Source: a virus. Taken from it: 58,269 nt of DNA. How positions within the stretch are numbered: position 1 is the stretch's first letter; every line of letters starts with the position of its first letter. The notes below the pieces were generated by a model. It searched no databases. It saw nothing but the letters and a program-made list of their open reading frames with translations, and was not told the DNA's origin. This document shows positions 10,946-21,089 of this stretch, piece after piece. The stretch lies in the IMG/VR virus record IMGVR_UViG_3300028920_000079, positions 1-58,269 of that record. The stretch is one strand, 5' to 3'. The translations under genes were made by a program, and so were the position numbers.

Positions 10946-11223
10946 AATCCTTTCCCGCCCGTCACCGTGGCAGTCTGTTGGTCCGTTCTGTCTACTGCAC
11001 TGTTGGGTTGCCTTCTGTTCCATGACTTGACGGCAGCCGCCTCAGTGCGCTCACCACCCATTGAGCAGAAGCAATTTGTATTGTTGCACTGCACCCAGAA
11101 CACCACCTTGGATGTTTTCATCTGAACGTCTGTTGTCCCGCAAAACGGGCAACCCAATAAGGAGTCCGAGCGTACCTCAGAAGGCCGCGTTTCTGGTTGT
11201 TCTTGAGTCTGTTGTGTAGTCAT
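10942..11223 (-). CDS. Lar-like (restriction alleviation type) zinc-finger protein
   Basis: 93 residues. GCPFCGTTDVQMK, then VQCNNTNCFCSMGGERTEAAAVKSWNRR matches the Lar family pattern (CPFCG...V.C..C...G....s..eAi..WN.R). Lar of the Rac prophage reduces type I restriction; many phage relatives are uncharacterised. The tail TDQQTATVTGGKGL is linker-encoded, like two neighbours. A second Lar-like gene is at 16412-16639. Confidence 0.7.
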   Translation of the reverse strand: MTTQQTQEQPETRPSEVRSDSLLGCPFCGTTDVQMKTSKVVFWVQCNNTNCFCSMGGERTEAAAVKSWNRRQPNSAVDRTDQQTATVTGGKGL

Positions 11224-11228
11224 TCGTT

Positions 11229-11447
11229 TTATCCTTTGCTGGCCTTCTGAGGCCGCTCAACTTGGTCGTTAGGATTACAGATAATGTCGCGCAGATCAGC
11301 CATTTTGAGCATGGCCTCGCTCAATTTGCCGTTCGCGTACTGCAACTGTTTCCATAGCCTGCGGTTCTCTGCCGCCATCTCAGCAAATTTCTGCTCGCGG
11401 CAATCGCAGGCGTGGTGATGCGTTGCACATTCTTTCGTGTTTTCCAT
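11229..11447 (-). CDS. Small coiled-coil protein with Cys/His N-terminus
   Basis: 72 residues from the ATG at 11447 (ribosome-binding site GGGAG). CATHHHACDC at residues 7-16 could bind metal. Residues 20-55 (EMAAENRRLWKQLQYANGKLSEAML) form a coiled coil. No family recognised. Upstream lies a 150-base gap (11448-11597) with one linker copy and no convincing gene. Confidence 0.6.
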   Translation of the reverse strand: MENTKECATHHHACDCREQKFAEMAAENRRLWKQLQYANGKLSEAMLKMADLRDIICNPNDQVERPQKASKG

Positions 11448-11597
11448 ATTGTTCTCCCGTCCTAGTGCCGGTAAGCCCCGCCTCCGCGCCGTTCTGTGTT
11501 TTGAGTTCTGCACTCAGCATCAATAAACCCGTCAGTGATATAAGTGCAGTATGGCGCTTTGGCGGGGCGGGCCACTCGGCTTTTCCCGGCGTTTTAG

Positions 11598-11768
11598 TCA
11601 GCCATCGCCATTGCCTGAGCCATCGCCTGCGCCTGAGCCATCGCCTGAGCCATCGCCATCGCCATTGCCTGAGCCATCGCCTGCGCCTGAGCCATCGCCT
11701 GAGCCAGAGCCATAGCCAGAGCCATAGCCAGCGCCAGAGCCATAGCCCGATTTTTTTACATTTTCCAT
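11598..11768 (-). CDS. (Gly-X)25 repeat protein
   Basis: 56 residues: MENVKK followed by 25 dipeptides in which every second residue is Gly and X is Ser, Asp, Tyr, Ala or Asn (SGYGSGAGYGSG... to ...DGSGNGDG). The DNA repeat runs 11601-11750. Start overlaps the end of the upstream gene by 13 bases, implying coupling. I recall similar Gly-X mini-proteins directly behind DUF6948-like genes in other phages and gut bacteria, so the pair may be a conserved unit. The period-two pattern suggests a polyglycine-II-like or disordered chain. A Trp/Arg-rich frame through the same repeat (11380-11784) is a shadow. Confidence 0.75.
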   Translation of the reverse strand: MENVKKSGYGSGAGYGSGYGSGSGDGSGAGDGSGNGDGDGSGDGSGAGDGSGNGDG

Positions 11769-13720: not shown

Positions 13721-13921
13721 ATGAAATGGAAGCAGATATCCATCAGTATACCGGAAGAGGCGTTACCGTACATTAAACAGGTAGCGAAGGAACAGAATAG
13801 AACGGTAGCTTCTCTCGGTGGATGGGCACTGCTACAGCTTACAGGTTGGTACGATAGACATCCGTTAAACATGAGTGAGTTCATAGAGAATGAAAGAATT
13901 GAACGTACAAACAGACGATAG
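13721..13921 (+). CDS. Ribbon-helix-helix-like regulator candidate
   Basis: 66 residues. KWKQISISIPEEALPYIKQVAKEQNRTVASLGGWALLQL resembles the RHH pattern with a short strand then two helices. Its start abuts the TACAGTA cluster, consistent with autoregulation. No ribosome-binding site precedes it. Together with the opposing gene at 13595 it could form the phage's decision switch; this is inference. Confidence 0.55.
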   Translation: MKWKQISISIPEEALPYIKQVAKEQNRTVASLGGWALLQLTGWYDRHPLNMSEFIENERIERTNRR

Positions 13922-14108
13922 AGACGTTATCATTAGAGGGCAGCAGATTGCTTCCCGCTGGGTAGAGTCTATTTCGCGGGATACTGTAACTGAAATGGCT
14001 CTGATCATGGCAAGACAGGAAAAAGTTATAGCGAAATGTACTGTTGAAATTGATCGGCTGACTAAAGAGATCAGGATACTTCAGCAGAAGCTGTCTTTAA
14101 CTGAATAA
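13890..14108 (+). CDS. Small coiled-coil protein
   Basis: 72 residues overlapping the previous gene by 32 bases. VIAKCTVEIDRLTKEIRILQQKLSL at the C-terminus forms a coiled coil. No clear ribosome-binding site, so it may depend on coupling. The 3' end overlaps the convergent gene (14071-14310) by 38 bases. Confidence 0.5.
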   Translation: MKELNVQTDDRDVIIRGQQIASRWVESISRDTVTEMALIMARQEKVIAKCTVEIDRLTKEIRILQQKLSLTE

Positions 14109-14310: not shown

Positions 14311-14867
14311 GCTTCTGCCTTGTCCTTAAGCTGTGCTTGTGCTGTTAATCCTACACCTATAGCGGCCCATACATCCTTGCTTACACCGTACAGTGGTCCC
14401 GGCTTATGCTTCCAGCCTGTAGCATCGCACTCAGGGCACGGTTCATGGTCCCTGCCTACCCATGTCTTACCTTTACAACGCTGGCACTTCTTGCCGCCTA
14501 TAGCCTCTTCCTTGGTCGGGCCGTAATGGTCTATTATAGCCTGTCTAATAGTGCTATCGTTAGCCCTTGGGTTTTTGCATAGATGCAGCTTTACATCCTG
14601 ACGGTATATCTTGATCTTCTTGCCAGCTCGTGAGGCTTGCCAGAACCGGCCAGCCCAGAACACTGTCTCAAATGTAGACTTGCCGACGGGCATACCGTAA
14701 GAGGCAACCATTTCAACGGCTAGGACGGCGACAAAAGGCCATATGTTATACAACTCAGGCAGCATATCTTCGTTAGAAAGAAGTCCGAAGTCTTCTATCT
14801 TCGGCAAGCGATAATCTAGGACTGCATATGCCGACTGGTATGTACCGGGATCAATGGCTAAGATCAT
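14307..14867 (-). CDS. RuvC-like Holliday-junction resolvase with zinc insert
   Basis: 186 residues. ILAIDPGTYQSAYAVLDY (residues 2-19) is the RNase H-fold first strand with catalytic Asp. VLAVEMVASYG supplies the second acidic residue and the C-terminal DVWAAIGVG a third. A zinc-finger insertion (CQRCKGKTWVGRDHEPCPEC) with four Cys lies before the last motif. Phage RuvC-like enzymes resolve replication or recombination junctions ahead of packaging. Adjacent recombination genes (nuclease, RecT) support the role. Confidence 0.75.
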   Translation of the reverse strand: MILAIDPGTYQSAYAVLDYRLPKIEDFGLLSNEDMLPELYNIWPFVAVLAVEMVASYGMPVGKSTFETVFWAGRFWQASRAGKKIKIYRQDVKLHLCKNPRANDSTIRQAIIDHYGPTKEEAIGGKKCQRCKGKTWVGRDHEPCPECDATGWKHKPGPLYGVSKDVWAAIGVGLTAQAQLKDKAEA

Positions 14868-15124
14868 GTTGTTTCCTTTAACTCGTATCGCGACAAGGCT
14901 TGCTCTAACGTCACCTTACCGCGAGCAGCCCTATGCCACAGCAGCAGACCGACAACGCCAACCTGTTCAGGCTCTATATGCTCACAGTGGGCGGCTGCAA
15001 GCAAGCATTCATCTCGCGTGTACTCGGCAAGTTCCAGAGTCATCAACGGGACACGTTGCCTACGCCATCTCTCTTCACGCTTCCACAGAGCCGACCCTTC
15101 TTGTATCATCCGTACAAATTTCAT
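14864..15124 (-). CDS. Hypothetical helical protein
   Basis: 86 residues, starting MKFVRMIQEGSALWKREERW. Mostly helical; DECLLAAAHCEHIEPEQVGVVGLLLWH in the middle. Overlaps the resolvase start by four bases. The upstream GAGGGTAGGATTATG is a diverged copy of the SVAVRG linker found at 16092, 16405 and 16637. This implies the gene was adjacent to that cluster before the cassettes inserted. Confidence 0.6.
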   Translation of the reverse strand: MKFVRMIQEGSALWKREERWRRQRVPLMTLELAEYTRDECLLAAAHCEHIEPEQVGVVGLLLWHRAARGKVTLEQALSRYELKETT

Positions 15125-15133
15125 AATCCTACC

Positions 15134-15190
15134 CTCAAACCAGCGTCTACAGACGACGTGGATACACGCGCCTGAGACTTGTCGTTGACT
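15134..15190 (+). repeat. attC-like site 1 (left boundary)
   Basis: Elements in order: CTCAAAC (15134-15140), nine-base spacer, arm L'' (15150-15160), loop GATA, arm L' (15165-15174), nine-base spacer, GTTGACT (15184-15190). The arms form nine pairs with one A-C mismatch and one extrahelical A (15156) on the L'' side. The R''-like box overlaps the end of the start-associated linker, so this left site could be a chance or partial attC. GTTGACT would mark the start of cassette 1. Confidence 0.5.
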
Positions 15191-15209
15191 ATAAACTAAG
15201 GAACCATAA

Positions 15210-15488
15210 ATGAATAGAGAACCAGATTTGACGCTTAAAATACAGCAAGCGAATGTAGAACTGCGTCAATATATTTTTGCATTGGAAAAAGAAATTGCTC
15301 GCCTTCAAAAGCAGAATGCGCATCTCCAAGCGAAGGATACATCCAACCAATACAGGATCTCGCATCTTGAGCAAAGCATAGCCGACCTTCAGCGTAAAAC
15401 AAGGCTTCATGTCAACATCGGTTTGAGTTCGCAATCTACACCTCCTGATACACAATCAAGTCAACAAAAGAATCCAGCAGACGGATAA
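15210..15488 (+). CDS. Cassette 1 ORF: coiled-coil protein
   Basis: 92 residues. Residues 10-68 are a coiled coil (LKIQQANVELRQYIFALEKE...HLEQSIADLQRK). The tail is Ser/Gln/Pro-rich (SSQSTPPDTQSSQQKNPADG). Ribosome-binding site AAGGAACC. The 3' end of the gene runs into attC-like site 2, as is common for cassette ORFs. The coil plus polar tail recalls the N-terminal leader of some IS66-type transposases, but no catalytic part follows. Confidence 0.6.
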   Translation: MNREPDLTLKIQQANVELRQYIFALEKEIARLQKQNAHLQAKDTSNQYRISHLEQSIADLQRKTRLHVNIGLSSQSTPPDTQSSQQKNPADG

Positions 15489-15513
15489 ACCGCCGCTGAT
15501 CCATACGTTAAAA
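15459..15513 (+). repeat. attC-like site 2
   Basis: R'' AGTCAAC (15459-15465), nine-base spacer, L'' (15475-15484), loop ATAAA, L' (15490-15498), eight-base spacer, R' GTTAAAA (15507-15513). Arms make eight pairs, one A-C mismatch and an extrahelical A (15481) three pairs from the loop. The right half closely matches site 3: CCGCCGCT-ATC-A-ACGTTA. R'' is fully complementary to the start of cassette 1. Confidence 0.7.
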
Positions 15514-15528
15514 GACCAAAGGAATATC

Positions 15529-15774
15529 ATGCAAAAACCTGTATTTTTTGTTTCTGAACGTGAATATCCTAAGCTACAAGCTGCATGCCCTGACGACTTC
15601 CCGTGGAAGTACCAAGAATTTGTTGAGCGATTTCAAAGCCTTTTGAGACATGATCCTAGCATCATCAAGATCAACGTGCGCGTAGCCGATTTTCTCGACT
15701 GGTGCAACAAGACCAAGGTCAATCCCAATAATACCTCTCGTGCTAGATATGCTGCACTTCTTTTCGCCAAATAA
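15529..15774 (+). CDS. Cassette 2 ORF: small globular protein
   Basis: 81 residues: MQKPVFFVSEREYPKLQAAC, then YQEFVERFQSLLRH, IIKINVRVADFLDWCNKTKV and NNTSRARYAALLFAK. Ribosome-binding site AAAGGAAT lies eight bases upstream. I recall small proteins of this design (opening with a Y/F-PKL motif, ending FL-WC...) as typical anonymous integron-cassette products; this is only a recollection. Flanked by attC-like sites 2 and 3. Confidence 0.65.
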   Translation: MQKPVFFVSEREYPKLQAACPDDFPWKYQEFVERFQSLLRHDPSIIKINVRVADFLDWCNKTKVNPNNTSRARYAALLFAK

Positions 15775-15803
15775 TTTTAGTCTACTGTTCATACTTAATT
15801 CCT

Positions 15804-15857
15804 TTCTAATCATAAGTTGGAGCGGACGGAGTACCGCCGCTCATCTACACGTTAGGC
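15804..15857 (+). repeat. attC-like site 3 (right boundary)
   Basis: R''-like TTCTAAT (15804-15810), nine-base spacer, L'' (15820-15829), loop AGTA, L' (15834-15842), eight-base spacer, R' GTTAGGC (15851-15857). The arms form nine perfect pairs with one extrahelical A (15826) three pairs from the loop. GTTAGGC fits the GTTRRRY consensus. Its TTA is also the stop codon (reverse strand) of the MazG-like gene, so insertion occurred at that stop codon. R'' matches the complement of the cassette-2 start at five of seven positions. Confidence 0.7.
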
Positions 15858-19250: not shown

Positions 19251-19661
19251 CTACTCTTCCGGCCATCTTTCCACCACACGAATACCAGTTCCTTCAACCA
19301 CAAACATATATCCGCAATCCCGTAGAGCCTCATTAACTACAGGAATTACCTTCTCGAATTCAGATTTCCACAATCGGTTTAATGCAGGAATCATTGCTTC
19401 AAGAACCAGTTTAGTCGTAGTGCTGCCAGCAGCCTGTTGTTCTTTCAGCATGGGAAGCTCATATATATGAAACTCATGTCTGTGAATTATTCCGTTCTTA
19501 TCTACGTAATCACACTGTAATAATGGAACAGCTTCAATCTTAAAACCTATAGGCATCATAGCGAAGTGTCCTCTTACAGTCATTGTTATGCCCATATAAG
19601 TAAACGTTTCACCAATACCTCGAAATGCTATTAGCTCTTCTATCTGTTTTTTTTCATTCAT
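19251..19661 (-). CDS. Hypothetical protein between integrase and RecT
   Basis: 136 residues: MNEKKQIEELIAFRGIGETF, then beta-rich ITMTVRGHFAMMPIGFKIEAVPLLQCDYVDKNG, then a long C-terminal helix-strand part (EAMIPALNRLWKSEFEKVIP, YMFVVEGTGIRVVERW). ATGA overlap with the integrase end at 19658. No family recognised. Confidence 0.6.
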   Translation of the reverse strand: MNEKKQIEELIAFRGIGETFTYMGITMTVRGHFAMMPIGFKIEAVPLLQCDYVDKNGIIHRHEFHIYELPMLKEQQAAGSTTTKLVLEAMIPALNRLWKSEFEKVIPVVNEALRDCGYMFVVEGTGIRVVERWPEE

Positions 19662-20761
19662 GGCATAATCCCAAAGTATTCCTCGCCCTCTTCCCTCGTA
19701 GCCAAGTTCCGGTAATGCTTGAACAACACACTGCTACTGTTGCCCATCATGCTGGTAGTCTTACTTACGTTCCCGTACTTGGCACAATGATACGTCGAAA
19801 AACTATGTCGAGTGATATTACTAGACCACTCTAATCCGTCCACCATAGCAACCAAGCTCTTCCTGTACTGATCAAACTCACGCCTGCCAACAAGCATATC
19901 ATCCGTAATAGAAGCATCCCAAGTAGCATCCAGCCAAGCAATCAGGTTATCTTCCATCTCAATATACCTAGACTGCCTGCACTTACTCACCTCTGGGTTA
20001 ATAAGTATAATACCTCTGGAACGCTGTATTTCGCCGTAGGATAACCTCTCGGCCTCAGATGAACGAAGGCCGGCAAATAATAAGATCGCGCCTTGTAGCT
20101 GCACTCTCGGCAATCCTTGCGCCCTTCTAAGCAGCATTTCAGCATGTTCAACGCTTAATACCTCTGGCATCTTCTCTTCTATGCTTGGTGACTGCAGTCT
20201 ATCGGTAGGCGTATCCTCTATGAAGCCTCGCTTTTTCGCAAAATTGAAAAAGACTTTAAGGTAACGCTGATCATTTGACTGTGTGATGAGACTAAGCGTG
20301 TGTCTCGTAGACAGGAAATGCTCTATCATATCCGGTGTAATCTGATCAACAGGTCGGTCGCCGCATATCTTAAGGAACCGTTTAAGGCTACATTCTGCAG
20401 TATCTATGCTACGTTGCCGTCTATTCATGTTCCGCATATCCTGAAGCAGCATCTCGTATACCTTCTGGGCACTGGGAATATAGTGTCTTGCCTTGTGGTG
20501 CTGATTGTAGAAGGATACTGCATCCAGTAAAGAACCGTCACCTAACATCTCGTAGGCTTGTGCCGCTGTTGCGAGTTGTTTCAGGGAAAAGTTCATTGCC
20601 TGCTCGCCGTACTTCTGCTGTTGTGTACGCAGGTGATCGGCAAGATCCTCGGCTAATTCTTGGGTCTTGCGCCGGTAGACTCTACGGTGATTGTCGATCC
20701 AGCCACAGTCTACTACCCATGAGCCGTTCTTTTCTTCTCTTATTCTCGGCCATTCTTTCAT
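19658..20761 (-). CDS. int: Tyrosine recombinase / phage integrase
   Basis: 367 residues from the ATG at 20761, directly after the previous stop. A SAM-like core-binding domain (about 90-190; RRQRSIDTAECSLKRFLKIC) is followed by the catalytic domain: Arg I in LLFAGLRSSEAERLSYGEI, box II SSNITRHSFSTYH, and GNSSSVLFKHYRNLA with the nucleophilic Tyr. Two usual His positions are replaced by Asn (NxxR instead of HxxR; GN instead of GH). I recall this variant from integrases of Verrucomicrobiota relatives. It implies site-specific integration and a temperate phage. The attP site is not identified; the gap 21093-21404 is a candidate. Confidence 0.85.
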   Translation of the reverse strand: MKEWPRIREEKNGSWVVDCGWIDNHRRVYRRKTQELAEDLADHLRTQQQKYGEQAMNFSLKQLATAAQAYEMLGDGSLLDAVSFYNQHHKARHYIPSAQKVYEMLLQDMRNMNRRQRSIDTAECSLKRFLKICGDRPVDQITPDMIEHFLSTRHTLSLITQSNDQRYLKVFFNFAKKRGFIEDTPTDRLQSPSIEEKMPEVLSVEHAEMLLRRAQGLPRVQLQGAILLFAGLRSSEAERLSYGEIQRSRGIILINPEVSKCRQSRYIEMEDNLIAWLDATWDASITDDMLVGRREFDQYRKSLVAMVDGLEWSSNITRHSFSTYHCAKYGNVSKTTSMMGNSSSVLFKHYRNLATREEGEEYFGIMP

Positions 20762-20762
20762 C

Positions 20763-21089
20763 TTAGTATCCCGTAATTGTAATTGCACCTACTAATACGC
20801 CAATACCACCCATGATTATTACTGTTGCAAAAAGGAAACCTAAAGCTGCCATAAGCAGTGAGCCAATACGTAAAACCCAAGGACTGCTTTGCCACTCGTC
20901 CTTATGTAGCATTGATAAATATGGTATCAAACAGACAATGGTAATGCCTGTGAATAGCAGCAAGGTGCTGCAAAGGCTTCTTACAAAAAGCTCATTCCAA
21001 TCAGTACCTGCAATAAGAGCATTCGATACGACTGTATTAGTTGCCACATCTACATAAGCCTTAGTTGCCATAGGATTCGTATATGTCAT
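20763..21089 (-). CDS. Membrane protein with fibre-like N-terminus
   Basis: 108 residues from the ATG at 21089 (a GTG precedes it). NPMATKAYVDVATNTVVSNA at the N-terminus mimics the fibre motif ATKIYVDTATN of the 36585-39527 protein. It is followed by hydrophobic helices (LCSTLLLFTGITIVCLIPYL; IGSLLMAALGFLFATVIIMG; IGVLVGAITITG). The mix of a fibre motif with two or three membrane spans is unusual. Adjacent to the integrase; stop immediately precedes its start. Confidence 0.6.
   Translation of the reverse strand: MTYTNPMATKAYVDVATNTVVSNALIAGTDWNELFVRSLCSTLLLFTGITIVCLIPYLSMLHKDEWQSSPWVLRIGSLLMAALGFLFATVIIMGGIGVLVGAITITGY

Follow-up and report, generated by a model that had tools for sequence, protein, structure and literature searches.

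A 667-bp segment (positions 15185-15851) of an uncultivated tailed phage genome is very probably an integrase-less array of two integron gene cassettes, which may have been gained through the integron integrase (IntI) of a host. Integrons are bacterial gene-capturing platforms, and an attC array that lacks an integrase is called a CALIN. The locus is a two-cassette CALIN with clean borders, a kind of element known from phages since 2023. This assignment draws on direct observations, namely the layout of the array, the covariance scores of its sites 2 and 3, the agreement between each R'' box and the first bases of the cassette that it terminates, and the lack of intI in the record. The initial annotation, which had read the locus as two captured integron cassettes, is supported.

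The window analysed here is the entire virus record (58,269 bases). Its gene content is that of a tailed phage, with terminase, portal, major head protein, primase/helicase, RecT and exonuclease genes, and nearly all of the phage genes are carried on the minus strand. IMG/VR lists the record without end repeats, and it may be incomplete and represent only a fragment. The array with its terminal sites (15133-15857) is flanked by a MazG-like gene and a gene for an 86-aa protein (Table 1). The MazG-like gene product matched Pfam MazG with an E value of 0.0036, which is under the gathering score, and phrog_1247 with an E value of 1.9e-6. A repeated gene leader, GTTAGAGGGTAGGGTTATG or a near variant of it, stands 5' of four consecutive phage genes (15122-15140, 16092-16110, 16405-16423, and about 16640). 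The leader GTTAGAGGGTAGGGTTATG doubles as coding sequence, specifying the C-terminal tail SVAVRG common to three of the preceding proteins. Low-complexity sequence was observed at 11551-11768; one strand codes for glycine/serine/aspartate repeats and the opposite strand for PEPSPEPSP repeats.

Table 1. Features of the cassette array and of the phage genes discussed in the text.
Feature	Positions	Strand	Remarks
86-aa phage gene, left of array	14864-15124	-	Repeated gene leader (15122-15140) lies upstream
Site 1, attC-like hairpin at left border	15133-15190	+	attC geometry; covariance score at background
Cassette 1	15185-15507	+	323 bp; begins at the TT that follows the left G and ends at the site 2 G
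Cassette 1 ORF (ORF1)	15210-15488	+	92 aa, coiled-coil-like; AAGGAA before ATG
Site 2, attC of cassette 1	15459-15513	+	26.1 bits (model R1), 25.1 bits (model R2); bottom strand folds
Cassette 2	15508-15851	+	344 bp
Cassette 2 ORF (ORF2)	15529-15774	+	81 aa; AAGGAA before ATG
Site 3, attC of cassette 2	15804-15857	+	34.8 bits (model R1), top place in the window; 29.2 bits (model R2)
MazG-like phage gene	15852-16091	-	Stop codon immediately to the right of the crossover
Phage tyrosine recombinase	19658-20788	-	phrog_1 integrase, E 1e-22; XerD, 54 bits; not an integron integrase

The array consists of two units, each with a GTT start, a single plus-strand ORF and a terminal hairpin of attC geometry; GTT boxes are located at 15184, 15507, and 15851, and the cassette limits assume crossover between G and TT. 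The initial annotation had proposed that three sites share one architecture, and the hairpins, spacings and boxes were all where it had placed them. Site 2 comprises R'' AGTCAAC (15459-15465), arms at 15475-15484 and 15490-15498 with one extrahelical base, the loop ATAAA and R' GTTAAAA (15507-15513). Site 3 comprises R'' TTCTAAT (15804-15810), arms at 15820-15829 and 15834-15842 with an extrahelical A, the loop AGTA and R' GTTAGGC (15851-15857). The two sites are similar over 22 nt (86%).

The R'' boxes relate to the cassettes that they terminate. In a captured cassette, R'' is expected to be complementary to the opening bases of the cassette it belongs to and not to the box that follows. Cassette 1 starts with GTTGACT, and the claim that AGTCAAC of site 2 complements it exactly proved correct at all seven positions. 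In cassette 2, R'' agreed with the start of its own cassette at five of seven positions, and both R'' boxes agreed with the box after their own attC at only four of seven. Since each R'' box matches its own cassette start better than the following box, the topology is that expected of captured cassettes, in which R'' complements the first bases of the cassette in its circular form. At the right junction, GTTAGGC falls on the stop codon of the MazG-like gene, as the initial annotation had it; the gene would therefore be left uncut by an insertion at this crossover. At the left border, recognizable phage leader sequence reaches to about 45 bp from the crossover. Both borders appear to fit IntI-mediated insertion better than capture of a random array fragment.

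Covariance analysis was used to score the sites. No Rfam match was detected anywhere in the window. A model (R1) was built from seven class 1 integron attC sites from plasmids (bottom-strand, long loops trimmed, no window sequence) and the whole window was scanned with filters off. Site 3 (E 9.7e-7) and site 2 (E 1.9e-4) were the top two places in the 58 kb, and the third-best place scored 13.2 bits. Held-out plasmid attC sites of other cassettes scored from 16 to 46 bits with R1. When R1 was applied to 1.1 Mb of other phages' loci, three places passed an E value of 5; two of these are the attC pair of contig L087, described below, and the third scored 15.4 bits. A wider model (R2, 98 attC sites) gave similarly placed matches at sites 3 and 2 (Table 1); on phage TJE1 it scored 34.6 and 25.2 bits at places that may differ from the attC sites recombined experimentally. 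Folded as single-stranded DNA and compared with shuffled sequences, the bottom strands of sites 1, 2, and 3 gave z values of -2.2, -2.8, and -2.9, and the top strands -1.5, -1.8, and -2.8, respectively. Sites 2 and 3 thus each contain R'', L'', L' and R', an extrahelical base and a bottom strand that folds. They deviate from the attC consensus in the degenerate R'' of site 3 (TTCTAAT for RYYYAAC) and in R' of site 2 (GTTAAAA). The class 1 integron of L120 has an orf cassette with nearly the same core as sites 2 and 3.

Site 1 is attC-like and was described as the weakest of the three sites. Its parts are arms at 15150-15160 and 15165-15174, the loop GATA, a spacer at 15175-15183 and GTTGACT at 15184-15190. 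The covariance check held for sites 2 and 3, which were well above background, but not for site 1, whose score of 8.0 bits is background, albeit in the right register; on this score a full attC was ruled out for site 1. A geometry score was also calculated, its layout following that of class 1 sites (6+3 arms and one extrahelical base, spacer of 8-10, loop of 3-12). By this score alone, the three GTTs were rank 1 and joint ranks 2-4 among 2115 in the window, a guide and not a strict probability, as the ranges were chosen with the window sites already in view. Among the 19064 GTTs in 643 kb of other phage DNA, 18 reached at least 8.6 and one reached at least 9.0; roughly one GTT in 1000 from other phages scores as high as site 1. 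The R''-like part of site 1 is the phage's own repeated gene leader, which is also present 5' of cassette-free genes. Site 1 may be either a decayed attC or an attC-resembling phage sequence that was used as a target.

Each interval contains one plus-strand ORF with its own ribosome-binding site (15210-15488 and 15529-15774), as annotated. The stop codon of ORF1 falls within site 2, and the search for sigma-70-type promoters gave nothing above chance for the cassettes; each unit holds one promoterless ORF ending near or in an attC. Both ORFs oppose the direction of the phage operon. The statement that they run against all neighbors holds for the adjacent genes but not for two small plus-strand ORFs 1.1-1.5 kb to the left (13721-14108). 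ORF2 had a weak match (E 1.3e-5) to phrog_4753, a family without known function, relatives of which were not detected in 18 other attC-bearing virus records. The structure model of ORF2 is helical and of low confidence, and this low-confidence model gave no structural match. Relatives of ORF1 and ORF2 were detected neither in 50,697 phage records nor by pattern scans of IMG/VR; relatives of ORF2 were not detected in 72,556 plasmid records. The same phage records and IMG/VR scans yielded no phage with both cassette genes but without the hairpins. No homologue of either ORF was found in known integrons. Matches of the cassette ORFs to defense profiles were dismissed as coiled-coil noise.

The record does not contain a complete integron. 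It encodes no integron integrase, in agreement with the initial annotation, as its sole tyrosine recombinase scored 31 bits on the integron integrase model, whose cut-off is 265. With two attC sites 344 bp apart and no intI over the cut-off in this possibly incomplete record, the locus is classified as a CALIN. It is very improbable that the phage's own tyrosine recombinase (19658-20788) captured the cassettes. The gene lies only 4 kb off in the same record, but its product fits phage- and Xer-type models better than the integron integrase model, and tyrosine recombinases from all 14 control genomes also gave matches below the cut-off. The phage integrase was thus dismissed as the capturing recombinase by its profile score. 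If the record is a fragment, an intI gene could lie in a missing part. A host IntI acting in trans would be the simplest source of capture. No close relative that might carry an empty site was found by a DNA search of phages or by scanning IMG/VR for MazG, RuvC-like, terminase and repeated-leader matches, and it is for this reason that we infer capture in trans by a host IntI. Relatives found through RuvC had no neighboring genes in common with the window, except for distant RecT matches in two loci.

The cassettes could have been gained while the phage was in an integron-bearing host, whose IntI would recombine circular cassettes via their folded attC bottom strands. The target would be the GTT beside the phage mazG stop codon, and crossover between G and TT would give base-exact borders and leave mazG uncut. 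The empty target would read CTTGTCG/TTAGGCAATATG, with site 1 directly joined to GTTAGGCAATATG. The cassettes would then be carried by the phage, and excision or transfer would be possible in any IntI-bearing host. In its most specific form, which we put forward tentatively, host IntI placed the cassettes directly and precisely into the phage beside a stop codon, the target being an attC-like hairpin (site 1) with GTTAGGC at its end. If this is true, integron capture acts on phages directly, and phages are more than carriers of arrays that they acquired by other recombination.

It is rather unlikely, although less so than the other alternatives considered, that genuine cassettes entered as a piece of a host array by homologous or illegitimate recombination, not through IntI, with site 1 being the decayed attC of a mostly lost third cassette. 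Such a route has been proposed for phage CALINs (Qi et al., 2023; PMC9892861), and site 1 does have attC geometry in the right register. Moreover, with the cassettes removed, about 60 bp would still separate mazG from the next gene, which is more than at the other gaps of this tightly packed operon. However, both borders are exact at the expected crossover base and the mazG stop codon is kept at the right, and the background score of site 1 and the origin of its R'' part in the phage leader argue against this route.

The hairpins could also be native to the phage and not attC sites, serving two small phage genes, for example as transcription terminators or regulatory hairpins. Hairpins at gene ends are common in phages, and the ORFs have no relatives in known integrons, but we consider this improbable. 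None of the hairpins has a T-run and a terminator scan detected none of the three, while the extrahelical base, spacers and GTT box are those of attC and the covariance scores are far over the phage background. Native hairpins would also leave the match between R'' and the cassette start without a reason.

Sites resembling attC were detected elsewhere. The window has a lone attC-like site at 11152-11274, with 12-bp perfect arms (CCTCAGAAGGCC and GGCCTTCTGAGG) that are 54 nt apart and extended by GAGCG/CGCTC; it has a 9-base spacer and GTTAGGA and scored 16.0 bits (E 0.2) with R2. Its arms fall within the terminal part of one minus-strand ORF and the beginning of the following one, whose product looks by eye like a Lar-type zinc ribbon protein. 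L087 is a phage contig with a related terminase and two attC sites (39.8 and 37.6 bits) that lie 320 bp apart at 10-388 and flank an 85-aa ORF; we read this pair as a real array. Its second attC adjoins the start of a Mom-family DNA-modification gene (385-990; PF25680, E 2e-37). At 1908-2152 of phage contig L111, two attC sites (28.6 and 25.0 bits) flank a 64-aa ORF; next to them is a gene that, by eye, resembles a broken ASCH-domain gene. Two matches to the core pattern of sites 2 and 3 were dismissed, L110 for want of an attC score and L112, a bacterial contig, as the matching stretch is part of a reading frame that has a GGDEF motif.

One narrow attC pattern retrieved 31 IMG/VR stretches (L130-L160), showing that such arrays are not rare in IMG/VR; R1 found 119 places in these stretches at an E value of 0.5, many of them in arrays. 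Among 18 attC-bearing virus records (16 of L130-L160 together with L087 and L111), an intI over the cut-off was present in three and a terminase was detected by one profile in eight. Some of the remaining records listed as viruses may be host DNA.

The phage described here is one more uncultivated phage among those known to have integron cassettes. Its exact borders make the route of entry testable, as action of IntI at an attG-like target vs. other recombination. Captures of this kind could let viruses acquire and pass on integron genes, and the attC of L087 beside a Mom-family gene fits the idea that phages acquire counter-defense genes by cassette capture. A broader survey of cassettes in uncultivated viruses seems worthwhile.

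Compared with class 1 plasmid arrays, the locus has the same attC geometry, and the L120 orf cassette has nearly the same core (CAGCGGACGG...CCGCCGCTG...CACGTTAGGC); unlike those arrays, it has no intI or resistance gene and apparently no attI. Bacterial genomes are also reported to carry cassettes inserted at attG sites (Loot et al., 2024, as cited in PMC12901181). The cassettes here resemble attG insertions in lying at a lone GTT target outside any integron, with no intI and apparently no attI nearby, and differ in the phage target, in the attC-like hairpin on the left and in that recombination is here deduced from sequence. CALINs were described in Tetrasphaera phage TJE1, Pseudoalteromonas phage PH101 and Polaribacter phage P12002L, and two TJE1 attC sites recombined with attI1 (Qi et al., 2023; PMC9892861). 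The initial annotation overrated the novelty of the locus, as phage CALINs and recombination assays were published in 2023 (PMC9892861). Like these CALINs, the array lacks intI and has small ORFs set between attC sites, of which there are at least two, and its covariance scores are in the same range as those of TJE1. Unlike them, it is carried by a new phage without close relatives and encodes small proteins of no known function instead of methyltransferases. Illegitimate recombination was discussed as the entry route of the published phage CALINs (Qi et al., 2023; PMC9892861), whereas the borders of the array described here are exact.
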